Below, in pieces: positions 3,180-8,981 of a stretch of DNA of 57,857 nucleotides. The position numbers were made by a program, and so were the translations under genes. The stretch is from Acidimicrobiaceae bacterium (GTDB taxonomy: Bacteria > Actinomycetota > Acidimicrobiia > Acidimicrobiales > RAAP-2). The stretch covers positions 26,713 to 84,569 of the forward strand of contig PLRX01000030.1 of assembly GCA_003164095.1 (NCBI GenBank), in the 5' to 3' direction. Below the pieces are notes generated by a model that made no database searches, was not told the origin of the DNA, and was given only the letters and a program-made list of their open reading frames with translations. Position 1 is the stretch's first letter. Each line of letters starts with the position of its first letter.

Positions 3180-4328
3180 TCAGTGGTCAACGACGACGAG
3201 GCCATGGTCCACGGTGTTGAGCGGATCGGGCCGACCGTCCGACCCGATCACCACGATGTCCTCCAGGCGCATGCCAAAGCAGCCCTCCAGGTAGATGCCG
3301 GGCTCGACCGAGAAGGCGTGGCCGGGCACCAGCGGGGCATCGTTGCCCACCACCAGGTACGGATCCTCGTGCTCCTCGATCCCGATGCCGTGACCGGTCC
3401 GGTGCACGAAGAGGTGCCCGAAACCGGCGGCGTCGATGGCATCCCGGGCAACGGCGTCGACCGCGGCGGCCGTCGCACCGGCCACGGCCGCCTCGACCGC
3501 CGACTGCTGGGCCGCCTGCAGAACGTCGTAACACTCGCGTATCTCGGGCGACGGCTCGCCGGTGACGACCGTCCGGGTGATGTCCGAGCAGTAGCCGACG
3601 TCACCGTCGAGCGACAGCGTGCCCCCGAAGTCACAGACGACTGTCTCGTCCGGCCCTATGACCCGGTCCCCGGGCTCGTGGTGGGGGCTGGCCGCGTTCG
3701 GTCCGCTGCCCACGATGGCGAAATTCACGGCACTGTGCCCTTCGGCGACCAAGAGCGCGCCCAGGTCGGCGGAGACTGCCGCCTCCGTCCGGCCGAGGAG
3801 CGGGATCCCGCCCGACTGCAGCACCACCGCCACGCGGTCGGCAGCGGCACCAGCCGCTCGGAGCGCCGCCACCTCCGCTGCGTCCTTGACGGCCCGGATG
3901 GGCGAGGTGACGGTCGATGCCTCGATCCACCGGGCGTCGGGCAGACGACGCTGGAGGGCGAGCGTCGTCGTGGCCCACGCCCGATCGGACAGTGCGAACC
4001 GGCCCGACGACACGCCGGCCACCTGGTCCACGACGAGGTCGACGGGATCCACGTCGTCCGCCCAGGGCAGCACGTCGAACAGTCCGTCGGCGCCGGGCAC
4101 CCGGGGCGCCTCCAGCCGGGGCACCACCAGGACCGGGTCGCCGACCAGCGGCAGGACCAGGAGCGTGAGGCGCTCCAGCGGCATGGCCCGGTACCCGGTC
4201 AGCCACGGCAGGTCGGCCCCGTGCGAGAGCAGGAGGACGTCCACCCCGGTCTCCTCCATACGGGCCCGCACCCGGGCCATGCGGGAGCGGCGGGCCTCGA
4301 GGGCCTGGGGGCTGAGTTCGTCCGACAT
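3180..4328 (-). CDS. M24-family metallopeptidase (Xaa-Pro dipeptidase/aminopeptidase)
   Basis: Cleaves Xaa-Pro bonds in family members, using two metal ions. The protein has 382 residues: a creatinase-like N-terminal domain (about 1-135) and a pita-bread catalytic domain. The metal-ligand segments are visible: CDFGGTLSLDG and CSDITRTV with the two Asp, the His in HRTGHGIG, Glu in FSVEPGIY and Glu in GMRLEDIV. The start is the ATG at 4328, only 4 nt past the lipB-lipA stop. A longer open frame runs upstream but lies inside lipA and has no family similarity. Likely cytoplasmic and co-transcribed with the lipoylation genes. Confidence 0.92.
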   Translation of the reverse strand: MSDELSPQALEARRSRMARVRARMEETGVDVLLLSHGADLPWLTGYRAMPLERLTLLVLPLVGDPVLVVPRLEAPRVPGADGLFDVLPWADDVDPVDLVVDQVAGVSSGRFALSDRAWATTTLALQRRLPDARWIEASTVTSPIRAVKDAAEVAALRAAGAAADRVAVVLQSGGIPLLGRTEAAVSADLGALLVAEGHSAVNFAIVGSGPNAASPHHEPGDRVIGPDETVVCDFGGTLSLDGDVGYCSDITRTVVTGEPSPEIRECYDVLQAAQQSAVEAAVAGATAAAVDAVARDAIDAAGFGHLFVHRTGHGIGIEEHEDPYLVVGNDAPLVPGHAFSVEPGIYLEGCFGMRLEDIVVIGSDGRPDPLNTVDHGLVVVDH

Positions 4329-4332
4329 CGGC

Positions 4333-6042
4333 TCAGCGGACCGACATCGAGACGGGCACGGGGGCCGAGGCGCCGGACGAGGCGTCCGCCGCTTCACGTG
4401 CGTGGTAGCTGGACCGGGTGAGCGGCGACGCCTGGACGTGGGCGAAGCCGAGCGCCATGCCGGCCCGGCGCAGTCCGTCGAACTCCTCCGGCGTCCACCA
4501 CCGGGCCACCGGGAGGTGTGAGGCGCTCGGGCGGAGGTACTGCCCGAGGGTGACGATGTCGACCCCGACAGCACGCAGGTCGGCCAGCGCCGCGAGCACT
4601 TCGTCCTCCCGTTCGCCCATGCCGAGGATGATCCCCGACTTGGTGGTGAAGCCGGCGTCGGCCGACCGGGCAAGCACGGTCAGGCTGCGGGCATAGCCGG
4701 CGGACGGTCGGACGGCCCGCTGCAGGCGCGCCACCGTCTCGATGTTGTGGTTGAGCACGTCGGGGCGGGCGTCGAGGATGGTCCTGAGGGAGTCGCGGTC
4801 CCCTTTGACATCGGAGATGAGGACCTCGACCGCGGTCAACGGGCTTGCCGCACGGATGGCGGCGATGGTCTCGGCGAAGGCCACGGCACCGCCGTCGGCC
4901 AGGTCGTCGCGGGCGACACATGTGATCACGGCGTGGGCGAGCCCCATCCGGGCGACCGCCTCTGCGACCCGGGTCGGCTCACCCGGGTCGAGCGGGAGCG
5001 GGTGGCGGGTGTCGACCTGGCAGAACCCGCAGGCCCGGGTGCAGCGGGAGCCGTTGATCATGAAGGTCGCGGTGCCCTCCGCCCAGCACTCGTAGATGTT
5101 GGGGCAGCCGGCCTCTTCGCACACGGTCACGAGGTCGTGGTCGCGCATCGAGTGCCGGAGGCCGAGGTACTCGTCGGCCATGGTCGCCTTCACCCGGAGC
5201 CACTCCGGCTTGCGGGACGACAGTGCCACCCCGGCGGCGGGGTCGACGCCCGATCGGGCCATGCGGCGCTCCAGGGCTGTCGCCGAGCCGACCAGCACCA
5301 CCGGCACCCCGCCCGGCGCAGCGTCGCGGGCGCCGTCGGTCACCATGGCGACGTCATCGACCGGTCCCCATACGCGGCCCGCTGCAGCGATCACCGCATC
5401 GACGGCCTCCGCCATGGACACCGCGAACCCCTCGGCGACCAGCGACGTCATGGGGTGGTCGGGGATCCCACATGGCACGATGTGCTCGAACATGGCGAGG
5501 TCGGTGGTCACGTTGAGGCCGAAGCCATGGGTGGTCCGCCCCCGTGAGGTCCGCACCCCGACGGCAGCCACCTTGCGGGGCCCGTCATGTCCGGTGCCGG
5601 TCGCATCGGGGTCGATCCACACACCCGGGTACGTCGGCATCCGACCCACCCGGTCCGCCGGGACGCCGAGGGCGACCAGCGCGTCGATCACCACCTGCTC
5701 GACCTGGCGGACGTGCTCCGGGCCGTGGTGGGGCCCACGCCCGACCGATCGCACCGGGTAGCCGACCAGCTGCCCCGGCCCGTGGTACGTCACGTCGCCG
5801 CCCCGGTCGACGGTCAGGAGGGTCGCGCCCACCGTCGACGGGTCGACCAGCACGTGGGACGGGTCGGCATTCGATCCGAGGGTGTAGACGGGTCCGTGCT
5901 CCATCAGGAACAGGTAGTCGTCGTCCGATCCTGAGGCCACCGCCCGTTGCAGGTCCCACGCCTCCGCGTACGGCACGCGGCCCAGCCACCGGGCGCGGAG
6001 GCCACGTCCCTCCACCTCGGCCGACCGGCGGTCGTCCTCCAC
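4333..6042 (-). CDS. lipB-lipA: LipB-LipA fusion: octanoyltransferase plus lipoyl synthase
   Basis: One uninterrupted frame carries both lipoate-making enzymes. Residues about 10-215 are LipB, which moves octanoyl from ACP to target lysines: RGGDVTYHGPGQ (80-91), Lys157 in RKVAAVG and the acyl-carrying Cys191 in VPCG. Residues about 275-560 are LipA, a radical-SAM enzyme that inserts two sulfurs: auxiliary-cluster cysteines 308, 313 and 319, radical-SAM CxxxCxxC at 334/338/341, and RSSYH near the C-terminus. A linker of roughly 55 residues, starting near VWGPVDD, separates them. No stop codon intervenes. The GTG at 6042 is 7 nt past the E2 stop; 28 further codons are open upstream inside E2 but are not LipB-like. 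The substrate, the E2 lipoyl domain, is encoded just upstream. Confidence 0.93.
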   Translation of the reverse strand: MEDDRRSAEVEGRGLRARWLGRVPYAEAWDLQRAVASGSDDDYLFLMEHGPVYTLGSNADPSHVLVDPSTVGATLLTVDRGGDVTYHGPGQLVGYPVRSVGRGPHHGPEHVRQVEQVVIDALVALGVPADRVGRMPTYPGVWIDPDATGTGHDGPRKVAAVGVRTSRGRTTHGFGLNVTTDLAMFEHIVPCGIPDHPMTSLVAEGFAVSMAEAVDAVIAAAGRVWGPVDDVAMVTDGARDAAPGGVPVVLVGSATALERRMARSGVDPAAGVALSSRKPEWLRVKATMADEYLGLRHSMRDHDLVTVCEEAGCPNIYECWAEGTATFMINGSRCTRACGFCQVDTRHPLPLDPGEPTRVAEAVARMGLAHAVITCVARDDLADGGAVAFAETIAAIRAASPLTAVEVLISDVKGDRDSLRTILDARPDVLNHNIETVARLQRAVRPSAGYARSLTVLARSADAGFTTKSGIILGMGEREDEVLAALADLRAVGVDIVTLGQYLRPSASHLPVARWWTPEEFDGLRRAGMALGFAHVQASPLTRSSYHAREAADASSGASAPVPVSMSVR

Positions 6043-6049
6043 CGTCGGG

Positions 6050-7510
6050 CTAGAGCTCGCCGACCCAGTCGCGGTCGTCGAGGATGGTCGACAGCCGGGA
6101 CAGGAACCGGGCGACGTAGGCGCCATCGACTGCGCGGTGGTCGAAGTTCATCGCCACCAGACCGATCGAATGGATGCCGATGGACTCGGTGCCGTCCGGC
6201 AGCTCCACGACTACCGGCTTTCGGGAGACGCCGTCGGTCGAGAGGATCGCCACCTGGGGCTGATTGATGATCGCCCCCGTGATCAGCGTGCCGAACGGGC
6301 CGGCGTTCGTGATCGAGAACGTCCCACTGCTGATGTCGTCGAGGCTCAGGCGCTTCGTGCGGGCACGATCGGCCACGTCGCGTATCCGCCGGGCCATGCC
6401 CCGCAGGTTGAGCTCCTCGGCGTTGTGCACCACGGGCACGATCAGGCCCTCGTTGTCGAGGTCGACGGCGATGCCCAGGTTGACCTCGTGATGGACGATC
6501 AGCTCGTCGTTGCCCACCGAGGCATTGAGGTGCGGGAACTCGGACAACGCCTCGACGGTGGCCCGCGCCACGAACGGGAGGTAGGTGAGACTGAAGCCCT
6601 CCTCGTCGCGGAACCGCTCGCCGTGGGCCCGGCGAACCTGCTCGACGCGCTCGTAGTCGATTTCCTTGACCATCAACGTGTGGGCCGAGGTCGCCTTCGA
6701 CCGCACCATGTGCTCGGCCGTCCGCCTGCGGATGTTGGTGAACGGCACCACTTCGTCGCGCTCACCGGGCCGCACGCCGTCACTGGTCGGCGTGGCCGCC
6801 CCGGGCGTCGCCGGTAGGGGCGGGGCGGCGGACGGGGCCACCGGTGCCGGATGCTCGGCGCCGATGCTGGGCACCGCCGCCGGCGGACCACCTCGCTCGA
6901 TGACGGCCTCGACGTCGCCGCGGGTGATCCGGCCCTCGAGTCCGGTGCCCCGGATGGTCGCAGGGTCGATGGCGTGGTCGGCCAGGAGCTTGCGGACCAC
7001 CGGTGACAGCACCCGTGCCTGGTCCGCTCCGGCGGGAACGGTCGGAAGGCTCGAAGCAGCCGGGGCGGTCGATGCAGGGGGCACGACCGGCGGCGCGGCG
7101 GACGGCACCGGCTCGTCGGGCAGCGCCGACAGCGGGGCGGCAGCCGCGGGGGCTGGAGACAGCGGGGCGGCCGGAGGGGTAGGTGTCGCAGCCGGCGCAG
7201 ACTCCGCGGCCGCGGCCGGCGCGGGCGCAGCCTCCGGGGTAGGTGCAGCAACGGGGGCGGAACCGTGTGCGGCACCGTCGCCGTCGATGACGGCCAGGGC
7301 GACGCCGACGTCGACGGTGTCCCCCTCCTCGACGAGGATCGCCGTGAGGACCCCGCCAGCAGGAGACGGGACTTCGGAGTCGACCTTGTCGGTCGAAACC
7401 TCGAACAGGGGCTCGTCACGGGCGACGGTGTCGCCGACCGCCTTGAACCACTTGGTGATGGTCCCCTCGGTCACCGTCTCGCCGAGCTGCGGCATGGTCA
7501 CGTCAGCCAA
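6050..7510 (-). CDS. sucB: Dihydrolipoamide acyltransferase (E2) of a 2-oxoacid dehydrogenase complex
   Basis: Core subunit that carries the acyl group on a lipoyl arm. The protein has 486 residues: one lipoyl domain (1-78) with Lys42 in the TDKVDS turn, a long Ala/Pro linker (about 80-160), a peripheral-subunit-binding domain (about 163-200), a second Pro/Ala linker and the catalytic domain ending in DHRAVDG (His458, Asp462). The start is TTG at 7510: GGAAGGGG lies 8 nt before it and the sequence then matches the usual E2 N-terminus. It overlaps lpd by 8 nt. With aceE and lpd in the window it probably serves pyruvate dehydrogenase; a 2-oxoglutarate role cannot be excluded. Confidence 0.93.
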   Translation of the reverse strand: MADVTMPQLGETVTEGTITKWFKAVGDTVARDEPLFEVSTDKVDSEVPSPAGGVLTAILVEEGDTVDVGVALAVIDGDGAAHGSAPVAAPTPEAAPAPAAAAESAPAATPTPPAAPLSPAPAAAAPLSALPDEPVPSAAPPVVPPASTAPAASSLPTVPAGADQARVLSPVVRKLLADHAIDPATIRGTGLEGRITRGDVEAVIERGGPPAAVPSIGAEHPAPVAPSAAPPLPATPGAATPTSDGVRPGERDEVVPFTNIRRRTAEHMVRSKATSAHTLMVKEIDYERVEQVRRAHGERFRDEEGFSLTYLPFVARATVEALSEFPHLNASVGNDELIVHHEVNLGIAVDLDNEGLIVPVVHNAEELNLRGMARRIRDVADRARTKRLSLDDISSGTFSITNAGPFGTLITGAIINQPQVAILSTDGVSRKPVVVELPDGTESIGIHSIGLVAMNFDHRAVDGAYVARFLSRLSTILDDRDWVGEL

Positions 7511-8981
7511 CGTGGAGTCCCCTTCCGGTAAGTGCCAGCACCGTCTCGCCGAATGCCTCCGTCAGCGACGGGTGCGGCTGGATGAACTGGGCGACCTCGT
7601 CGGCCGTGGCTTCCCAGTTGACGGCCAGGTAGCCGGCGCCGAGTTGCTCGGTCACCCACGGCCCGACCATGTGGACGCCCAGGATGCGACCGGTCGACCC
7701 GTCCGGGCGCTTCTCCGCGATCACCTTCACCATGCCCTCGGTGTCACCGATGATCCGGGCTCTGCTGTTGCCCCCGAACGGATCCTTCTTGACCACGATG
7801 TCGAGGCCGGCGGCCTTGGCCGCCGCCTCGGTCATCCCGGCGAAGGCGACCTCCGGGTGGCAGTAGATGGCCCACGGCACGCGGGAATAGTCCACGGCGG
7901 CAGCAGGCTCGCCGAGGATCGACTTGACCACCACGATCGCCTCGGCGAACGCCACGTGGGCGAGCTGCGGGGTGCCGGCCACGACGTCGCCGACCGCCCA
8001 CACCCCGGGCGCGCTGGTCCGCATCACCGCGTCGGCCACCACGAACCCGCGGTCGTCGATCGTCACGCCTGCCTCGGGGGTCACGAGGCCCTCCGTGCGG
8101 GGGCGGCGGCCCACCGACACGACCACGGCATCGACCGTCAACTGCCCGTCGTCGCCGTACGAGACCACCGTCCGGTTTCCCGAGGGGTCCGGGGTGTGCC
8201 CGTTCAGTGTCACGCCGGCCTTCACGTCGATGCCACGCTTCTTGAAGGAGCGGCCGATCGTGCGCACGACGTCGTCGTCGCAGCCGTTGAGGATGGCGGG
8301 AAGCGCCTCGAAGATCGTCACGGATGTGCCCAGGTCGGCGAACATCGACGCGAACTCGCATCCGATGGCCCCACCTCCGATGACCGCCACTGTGGACGGC
8401 AGGTGGTCCAGGGCGAGCACCTCGTCCGAGGTCAGCACGATCGTGCCGTCGACGTCGAAGCCCGGGATCGTGCGCGGCACCGAGCCGGCGGCCAGCACCA
8501 CGTCGGTCCCGGTGACCTCGACGGTGGACCCGTCGTTCCCGGCGATCCGGACCCGGTGGTCGCCCAGCAGCGTCCCACTCCCGTTGAACACGGTCACACC
8601 CCGGCCCTTCAGCAGGCCCGAGAGCCCGCTGAACAGCTGGTCCACGACCTGCTGCTTGCGCTCCTGGCTCACCGCGAACTTCACGGTCGGCTCCGACTGG
8701 TCGGCTCCGGCCGAGATCCCGAACTCGGCGGCCGAGCGGACGGTCCGGCGGACGGCGGCCGTCTCCAGGAACGCCTTGGCCGGCACGCATCCACGGTGCA
8801 GGCAGGTGCCCCCCACCTTGTCGAGCTCCACCAGCCCGATGGACAGCCCGGCAGCGGCACCGTAGAGGGCGGCCGCGTAACCGCCCGGGCCGCCCCCGAC
8901 GACGACCACATCGAAGTGCTGTGCTCCCCCCGTTGCGGTCTGCTCCGTTGCCACCTCGGGTTCCGTGGGAACCACCTCCAT
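7503..8981 (-). CDS. lpd: Dihydrolipoyl dehydrogenase (E3)
   Basis: FAD flavoprotein that reoxidises dihydrolipoamide and reduces NAD+. The protein has 492 residues: FAD motif VVVVGGGPGG (25-34), redox disulfide GGTCLHRGC (Cys60/Cys65), NAD-binding VIGGGAIGCEF, second FAD motif WAVGDV, and the dimer-interface HPSLTE pair near the C-terminus. An extra 20 residues precede the core, so a later start is possible. It is the first gene of the lpd-E2-lipBA-peptidase-SDR run; TAGGCT about 35 nt upstream on the minus strand is a possible -10. Confidence 0.95.
   Translation of the reverse strand: MEVVPTEPEVATEQTATGGAQHFDVVVVGGGPGGYAAALYGAAAGLSIGLVELDKVGGTCLHRGCVPAKAFLETAAVRRTVRSAAEFGISAGADQSEPTVKFAVSQERKQQVVDQLFSGLSGLLKGRGVTVFNGSGTLLGDHRVRIAGNDGSTVEVTGTDVVLAAGSVPRTIPGFDVDGTIVLTSDEVLALDHLPSTVAVIGGGAIGCEFASMFADLGTSVTIFEALPAILNGCDDDVVRTIGRSFKKRGIDVKAGVTLNGHTPDPSGNRTVVSYGDDGQLTVDAVVVSVGRRPRTEGLVTPEAGVTIDDRGFVVADAVMRTSAPGVWAVGDVVAGTPQLAHVAFAEAIVVVKSILGEPAAAVDYSRVPWAIYCHPEVAFAGMTEAAAKAAGLDIVVKKDPFGGNSRARIIGDTEGMVKVIAEKRPDGSTGRILGVHMVGPWVTEQLGAGYLAVNWEATADEVAQFIQPHPSLTEAFGETVLALTGRGLHVG

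Follow-up and report, generated by a model that had tools for sequence, protein, structure and literature searches.

A single open reading frame of an Acidimicrobiaceae genome most likely encodes, judging from its sequence, a bifunctional enzyme in which an octanoyltransferase (LipB) is followed by a lipoyl synthase (LipA), and which would octanoylate and then thiolate the same lipoyl domains. The LipB-LipA fusion is present in nearly every genome checked in the class Acidimicrobiia, and we consider it probable, at roughly three chances in four, that this bifunctional enzyme became established a single time, when the class arose or close to that point, through loss of the stop codon between neighbouring genes. 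The term window refers throughout to the whole stretch of 57,857 nucleotides that was analysed (contig PLRX01000030.1).

The fused lipB-lipA gene, for which the earlier note gives no strand, is located on the minus strand, where its frame ends at a stop codon at 4335-4333 and is open up to an ATG at 6126, corresponding to 597 amino acids. Counted from a GTG at 6042, the gene (4333..6042) comprises 569 codons, its product has 569 amino acids, and the numbering of Lys157 and Cys191 used previously is then correct; the choice of start codon is provisional, homologues aligning from about residue 15. The LipB domain (residues 15-221, 5380..6000, minus strand; PF21948, TIGR00214) contains Lys157 (5574-5572) and Cys191 (5472-5470). 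The LipA domain, a radical SAM domain (residues 278-556, 4375..5211, minus strand; TIGR00510, PF04055), contains a first cysteine triad, C308/C313/C319 (CX4CX5C, 5086..5121), which we take to serve the auxiliary cluster, a second triad, C334/C338/C341 (CX3CX2C, 5020..5043), presumably serving the radical SAM cluster, and Ser544-Ser545 of an RSSY motif (4408..4413), all on the same minus strand. We assume that the two cysteine motifs together with the conserved serine are the defining marks of the LipA family. The two domains are separated by an inter-domain linker (residues 222-277, 5212..5379, minus strand), which is translated in frame, shows an excess of third-position changes and is variable in length across the class.

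Both halves of the fused protein score above the curated cut-offs of NCBIfam, with 128.2 bits for TIGR00214 (lipB, cut-off 83.55) and 340.4 bits for TIGR00510 (lipA, cut-off 310.25). The Pfam models LplA-B_cat and Radical_SAM are likewise above cut-off, and LIAS_N is matched partially, just below its threshold in hmmscan (24.7 versus 27 bits) and just above it in the genome search (27.5 bits). The proposal of the earlier note that one frame carries a complete LipB, with Lys157 and Cys191, and a complete LipA, with both triads, is thus borne out, and a search of the window sequence for a stop codon or frameshift between residues 220 and 280 found none.

The residues expected of both active sites could be followed in 221 distinct full-length fused proteins from the window's class, which its named relatives indicate to be Acidimicrobiia; the GC content of their genes ranges from 32 to 77%. 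No substitution is seen in 221/221 at His87, Lys157, Cys191, Ser544-Ser545 or any of the six cluster cysteines, Arg543 is invariant save for one ambiguous residue, and position 546 is Tyr in 203 proteins, with His in 15 and Phe in the other 3. Nothing in these residues points to a dead half. We also note 2 alignment columns in LipB and 12 in LipA in which at least 90% of 51 fused rows have one residue that is found in at most 35% of the separate rows.

How widespread the fusion is had been left open by the earlier note; it could now be found throughout the samples of the window's class and in none of the closely examined pairs outside it, phyla beyond Actinomycetota being barely sampled. The family sample has a match in 95 of 100 genomes, 85 of which show one continuous match across both halves. 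Five more have both halves in one open frame, three are cut by contig ends, one (G019) has a frame change near the end, and one (G039) has a weak radical SAM match only. Stops were flagged in 18 of the 85 continuous matches, and none lies at the junction in the six that were examined (genomes G025, G028, G040, G053, G091 and G096). We therefore reject the flagged stops as signs of separate genes, none being at the junction among the fetched in-class loci with both halves. The class sample has a match in 364 of 395 genomes, which is a count of matches and not a tally of fusions; when 160 of the 395 genomes were searched again, 80/80 and 74/80 matched, and the six misses were genomes that had also missed earlier.

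Among the best 80 loci of the named records, the titles are mainly Acidimicrobiales, Acidimicrobiaceae, Acidimicrobiia, Candidatus Microthrix, Acidiferrimicrobium and Candidatus Actinomarina, and a few (Bifidobacterium breve, Acidobacteria) seem wrong for the contents of the record. Actinomarina is assigned to the class Actinomycetes by NCBI; in the grouping of the genome collection, g104, which we take as Actinomarina, belongs to the window's class. Of 266 loci with both halves, repeats included, 243 have one frame through the junction, and the remaining 23 consist of 22 from outside the class and a single one (L237) from inside. In L237, the LipB frame passes through the linker into the start of LipA and then shifts; we read this as a probable sequence error or young mutation rather than as two genes. 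Other in-class exceptions are a frame change inside LipA (L263, from G019) and a stop inside LipB (L270). The halves are on different contigs or at contig ends in the genomes represented by L239 to L243 and L246. One in-class genome, G187, has LipB alone (L238, where the frame at 2117-2695 is about 44% identical), and no LipA was matched in it; the contig may be a contaminant, the genome may be incomplete at this point, or the LipA half may truly have been lost.

Outside the class, the phylum sample has a match in 325 of 396 genomes. In each of the 22 outside pairs, lipB ends at a stop codon before lipA, and the matched LipA part starts 54-204 bases after the lipB stop in 21 of them and 1 kb away in the other. 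Eight of the outside matches listed reach well into the LipB half (G525, G625, G644, G692, G748, G783, G817 and G823; L163 to L167 and L175 to L177), and all of these have stops and are separate genes. Some other outside matches start between residues 197 and 241, which lie in the LipB tail or the linker; four stop-free ones of this kind were examined (G481, G599, G678 and G734), and no LipB match was found in them. In a set of 20 further outside loci, these four included, 13 have LipB near LipA, always in another open frame. Beyond the phylum, the sampling consists of a plasmid collection, which yielded 214 records, all below 60% identity, with no continuous match among the 15 listed; the 8 of these 15 with a rounded coverage of at least 80% each consist of two pieces. 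Viral contigs gave 19 pattern matches and no relative, and viral structures gave distant lipoate-ligase or radical SAM folds only. In two loci of an outside family (L279 and L296, f71), we observe the order lipA then lipB, the reverse of that in the fusion.

The distribution in the samples is complemented by phylogeny. In a concatenated tree of 51 fused proteins and 29 separate pairs, the fused proteins are all on one side of a branch with support values of 98/95, and two Actinomarina rows sit among the fused rows. Quick single-domain trees have three label changes for LipA and four for LipB, and only the concatenated tree gives one; the single-domain trees are nevertheless compatible with one origin, and a single ancient fusion fits the concatenated tree. 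We hypothesize that lipB and lipA were neighbouring genes and that the stop codon between them would have been lost before the class diversified. No clear return to separate genes was found in the sampled in-class loci with both halves, though one new stop would suffice for it.

On the same strand and closely packed, the window has the order E3, E2, lipB-lipA and M24-type peptidase. The dihydrolipoyl dehydrogenase (E3) gene (7503..8981, minus strand) is above the cut-off of TIGR01350 and overlaps the frame of E2. The E2 gene (6050..7510, minus strand), the product of which is a likely substrate of the fused enzyme, has a Biotin_lipoyl match and scores 387 bits with its best model, TIGR02927, below the cut-off of 423 bits, and it is therefore given no name more specific than 2-oxo acid dehydrogenase E2. 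GTG 6042 follows the end of the E2 stop codon by 7 bases. Downstream, the gene for an M24-type Xaa-Pro peptidase (3180..4328, minus strand; no NCBIfam model above cut-off) likely starts at ATG 4328, 4 bases past the lipB-lipA stop codon. The placement of the fused gene between an upstream E2 gene and a downstream peptidase gene, as described previously from the sequence, is thus confirmed in the window. When named fused loci with 2.5 kb or more of upstream sequence are considered, E2 is within 200 bases in 42/53 and E3 is upstream in 52/53, as against 3/12 and 2/12 of the separate loci, 9/12 of which have E2 anywhere upstream. Of the 56 named fused loci for which 2.5 kb or more of downstream sequence is available, 26 have a peptidase gene there, as against 0/14 separate loci, so that it is not a fixed part of the arrangement. 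Elsewhere in the window, about ten copies of an 8-base unit, CCTGACGT, are present at 1280-1356, both at and beyond the end of the first gene, the stop of which is near 1284.

The window's own genome, which is 95.5% complete, has one LipA match, one true LipB and one GcvH. New lipoyl groups are therefore probably made in this organism by the fused enzyme alone, its probable clients being E2 and GcvH. There are five Biotin_lipoyl domain matches in the genome, some of which will be biotin carriers. Another contig of the genome (C58) encodes a distant LplA-like protein of 244 amino acids (L162:1381-2115), with a Pfam score of 59 bits, over cut-off, and a weak NCBIfam score of 30 bits; it may function as a ligase in salvage or as a transferase of the LipM/LipL type.

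LipB transfers octanoate from ACP to a lysine of the lipoyl domain and LipA inserts two sulfurs there, according to the accessible text of two papers (PMC9307952, PMC12246082). In the fused enzyme, the N-terminal half would accordingly load octanoate from octanoyl-ACP onto Cys191 and transfer it from there to a lipoyl-domain lysine, in E2 or GcvH, on which the C-terminal half would insert two sulfurs by radical SAM chemistry; both reactions are predicted from family knowledge. The join could raise the local concentration of octanoylated lipoyl domain at the lipoyl synthase site and would keep the two activities at 1:1. AlphaFold2 models were obtained for the window protein (pTM 0.91, mean pLDDT 90.8, with low confidence near linker residues 235-255) and for an Actinomarina protein that is 43-44% identical to it (pTM 0.89, pLDDT 89.0), where pTM is AlphaFold2's own estimate. 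A rough bound on pTM is 0.52-0.55 for a domain misplacement of 20-25 Å and about 0.68 for one of 10 Å. The observed values imply that the domains are confidently placed relative to each other in the models, which, having been built on alignments of the same family, are not fully independent. Since the solved relatives found are separate enzymes, no known structure of a fusion can simply have served as the template for the arrangement, and we infer that the domains may dock in a fixed manner.

The first of the two regions by which human LIAS contacts the H-protein comprises residues 66-110, in the N-terminal part of the enzyme (PMC12246082, accessible text). Residue 69 of LIAS corresponds in the alignment to a position close to where the LipA half of the fused protein begins, which places the attachment of LipB close to the carrier-docking edge. 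In the predicted bi-domain enzyme, a lipoyl domain leaving LipB would thus be near LipA, and a hand-over without release, i.e., channelling, would be plausible, although the carrier must still exit one active site and then enter the other. The stronger proposal, that the whole class possesses a rigid machine in which LipB is docked on the carrier-binding N-terminal edge of LipA and one lipoyl domain is octanoylated and then thiolated, being committed before it leaves, appears to us rather doubtful. The length of the linker, measured from S200 to W281, ranges from 55 to 202 residues (median 84) in the 221 fused proteins, and this wide range, together with its partly poor prediction, also suits a loose tether. 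A motif, F-[TSAV]-R, is present in 120 of the 221 linkers (mean 18 and maximum 28 in 200 shuffles) and was found in 0/22 tails of separate LipB proteins, nor is it present in the window's own linker. The linker is otherwise variable, and the motif reads FSRG in, for example, L042, L078 and L141.

The fusion could equally be accounted for by nothing more than a constant 1:1 dosage, and we give a little less than even odds to the possibility that the join sets expression and stoichiometry only, the domains working independently, the carriers diffusing freely and the join being not easily undone. Such an explanation draws on the adjoining lipB and lipA genes of many other actinobacteria, given which one lost stop would have been enough for the fusion, on the variable length of the linker, and on the resemblance of each half to stand-alone enzymes (TMt 0.81-0.93 to LipB and LipA structures). 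Against it speaks the confident mutual placement implied by the pTM values of both models, and no clear reversion is seen among the in-class loci with both halves, although one new stop is all that it would take.

A second possibility, that the gene gives two products, namely the long protein and a free LipA that is either translated from an internal start codon or cut off within the linker, seems to us improbable. In the window, codon 261 is an ATG and is preceded by GGAG at a distance of six bases, but of the 221 proteins 158 have Leu at the equivalent position and 31 have Met. A Shine-Dalgarno-like score of -6 or below is reached by 24.5% of linker ATG codons (19.4% in the LipB part, 20.0% in the LipA part), by 23.4% of linker GTG codons (17.8% and 14.0%) and by 17.2% of linker TTG codons (11.7% and 18.5%), and 133 of the 221 genes have at least one linker start with such a score. 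At a score of -8, the excess of GTG persists (7.0% versus 4.0% and 3.9%) but that of ATG vanishes (4.1% versus 8.2% and 7.5%), and the small excess of start codons is possibly due to the Gly/Arg-rich nature of the linker. As the score ranks several real LipA starts from outside the class poorly, the test is weak either way. Thus, the slight enrichment at positions that are not conserved lends an internal LipA start weak support at best, and a single bifunctional product is the reading that we prefer.

That the linker is part of this product is indicated by its substitutions. Comparisons of the window linker with three close relatives reveal 41, 44 and 44 changes at third codon positions, as against 11, 16 and 21 at first and 11, 15 and 12 at second positions, and the linker is therefore translated in this frame. 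At the highest GC content (77%), 80 linker codons would be open by chance with a probability of about 0.39, and the open frame alone thus proves little there, where it is conservation that does; in the Actinomarina-type genes, with 32-34% GC, the frame is open as well and the corresponding chance is about 0.001. The frame could in principle be an assembly artefact, given the 163 contigs of the window genome, or have stayed open by chance over a long distance because the DNA is GC-rich, as the probability of 0.39 might suggest. Both readings are rejected with near certainty, the same junction being present in 221 distinct proteins, in the single-contig genomes G101, G113, G126 and G202 and in AT-rich Actinomarina-type genes, with linker substitutions of the coding type.

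LipB and LipA modify the same lysine in turn, which raises the question of whether LipB passes the octanoylated carrier directly to LipA or sets it free first. A natural fusion that is found class-wide and has a confidently predicted arrangement offers a single construct with which hand-over can be tested directly, and perhaps a route to a structure with a bound lipoyl domain. The fusion might also serve as a marker for Acidimicrobiia as a class, and the fused gene might be used as a one-gene lipoylation tool in engineered hosts.

No report of a LipB-LipA fusion was found in the literature searched, which covers few subscription papers, and the fusion is absent from the accessible text of PMC10332631, PMC9307952, PMC3917532, PMC12246082, PMC4398509 and PMC7186572. 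The statement of the earlier note that LipB and LipA are separate proteins in characterised bacteria agrees with this literature as far as its accessible text goes. A 2023 survey of lipoate assembly in prokaryotes describes, in its accessible part, fusions of LplA with LplB and of a LipB-type unit with LplB (PMC10332631). Automatic database labels may already mark LipB-LipA proteins. Further, as NCBIfam already has a model for an LplA-LipA fusion (NF053790, LplA_LipA_fuse), the principle of coupling an enzyme of this sort to lipoyl synthase has a precedent. By its name, a bifunctional lipoate--protein ligase/lipoyl synthase, NF053790 has a ligase joined to LipA, and LplA and LipB share the Pfam catalytic domain PF21948; the fused protein described here, however, matches the LipA half of this model only (351 bits versus a cut-off of 800).

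The fused protein shares with stand-alone LipB (TIGR00214; PDB identifiers 1w66, from M. tuberculosis, and 2qhs) the fold, the Cys/Lys pair and the RGGDVTYHGPGQ motif, but runs on without a stop into the linker and LipA. With stand-alone LipA (TIGR00510; PDB identifiers 5exi and 5exk, from M. tuberculosis, and 8v0j, human LIAS) it shares both cysteine triads, the SS motif and the fold, 5exk and 5exi being the closest solved structures (about 51% identity of the LipA half to 5exk; TMt up to 0.93), but its LipA half is joined at the N-terminal end to LipB. The separate neighbouring genes of Rhodococcus, Dietzia, Streptomyces and others have lipB before lipA, as in the fusion, and differ from it in the stop codon that follows LipB; such neighbouring lipB and lipA genes probably represent the state that preceded the fusion.
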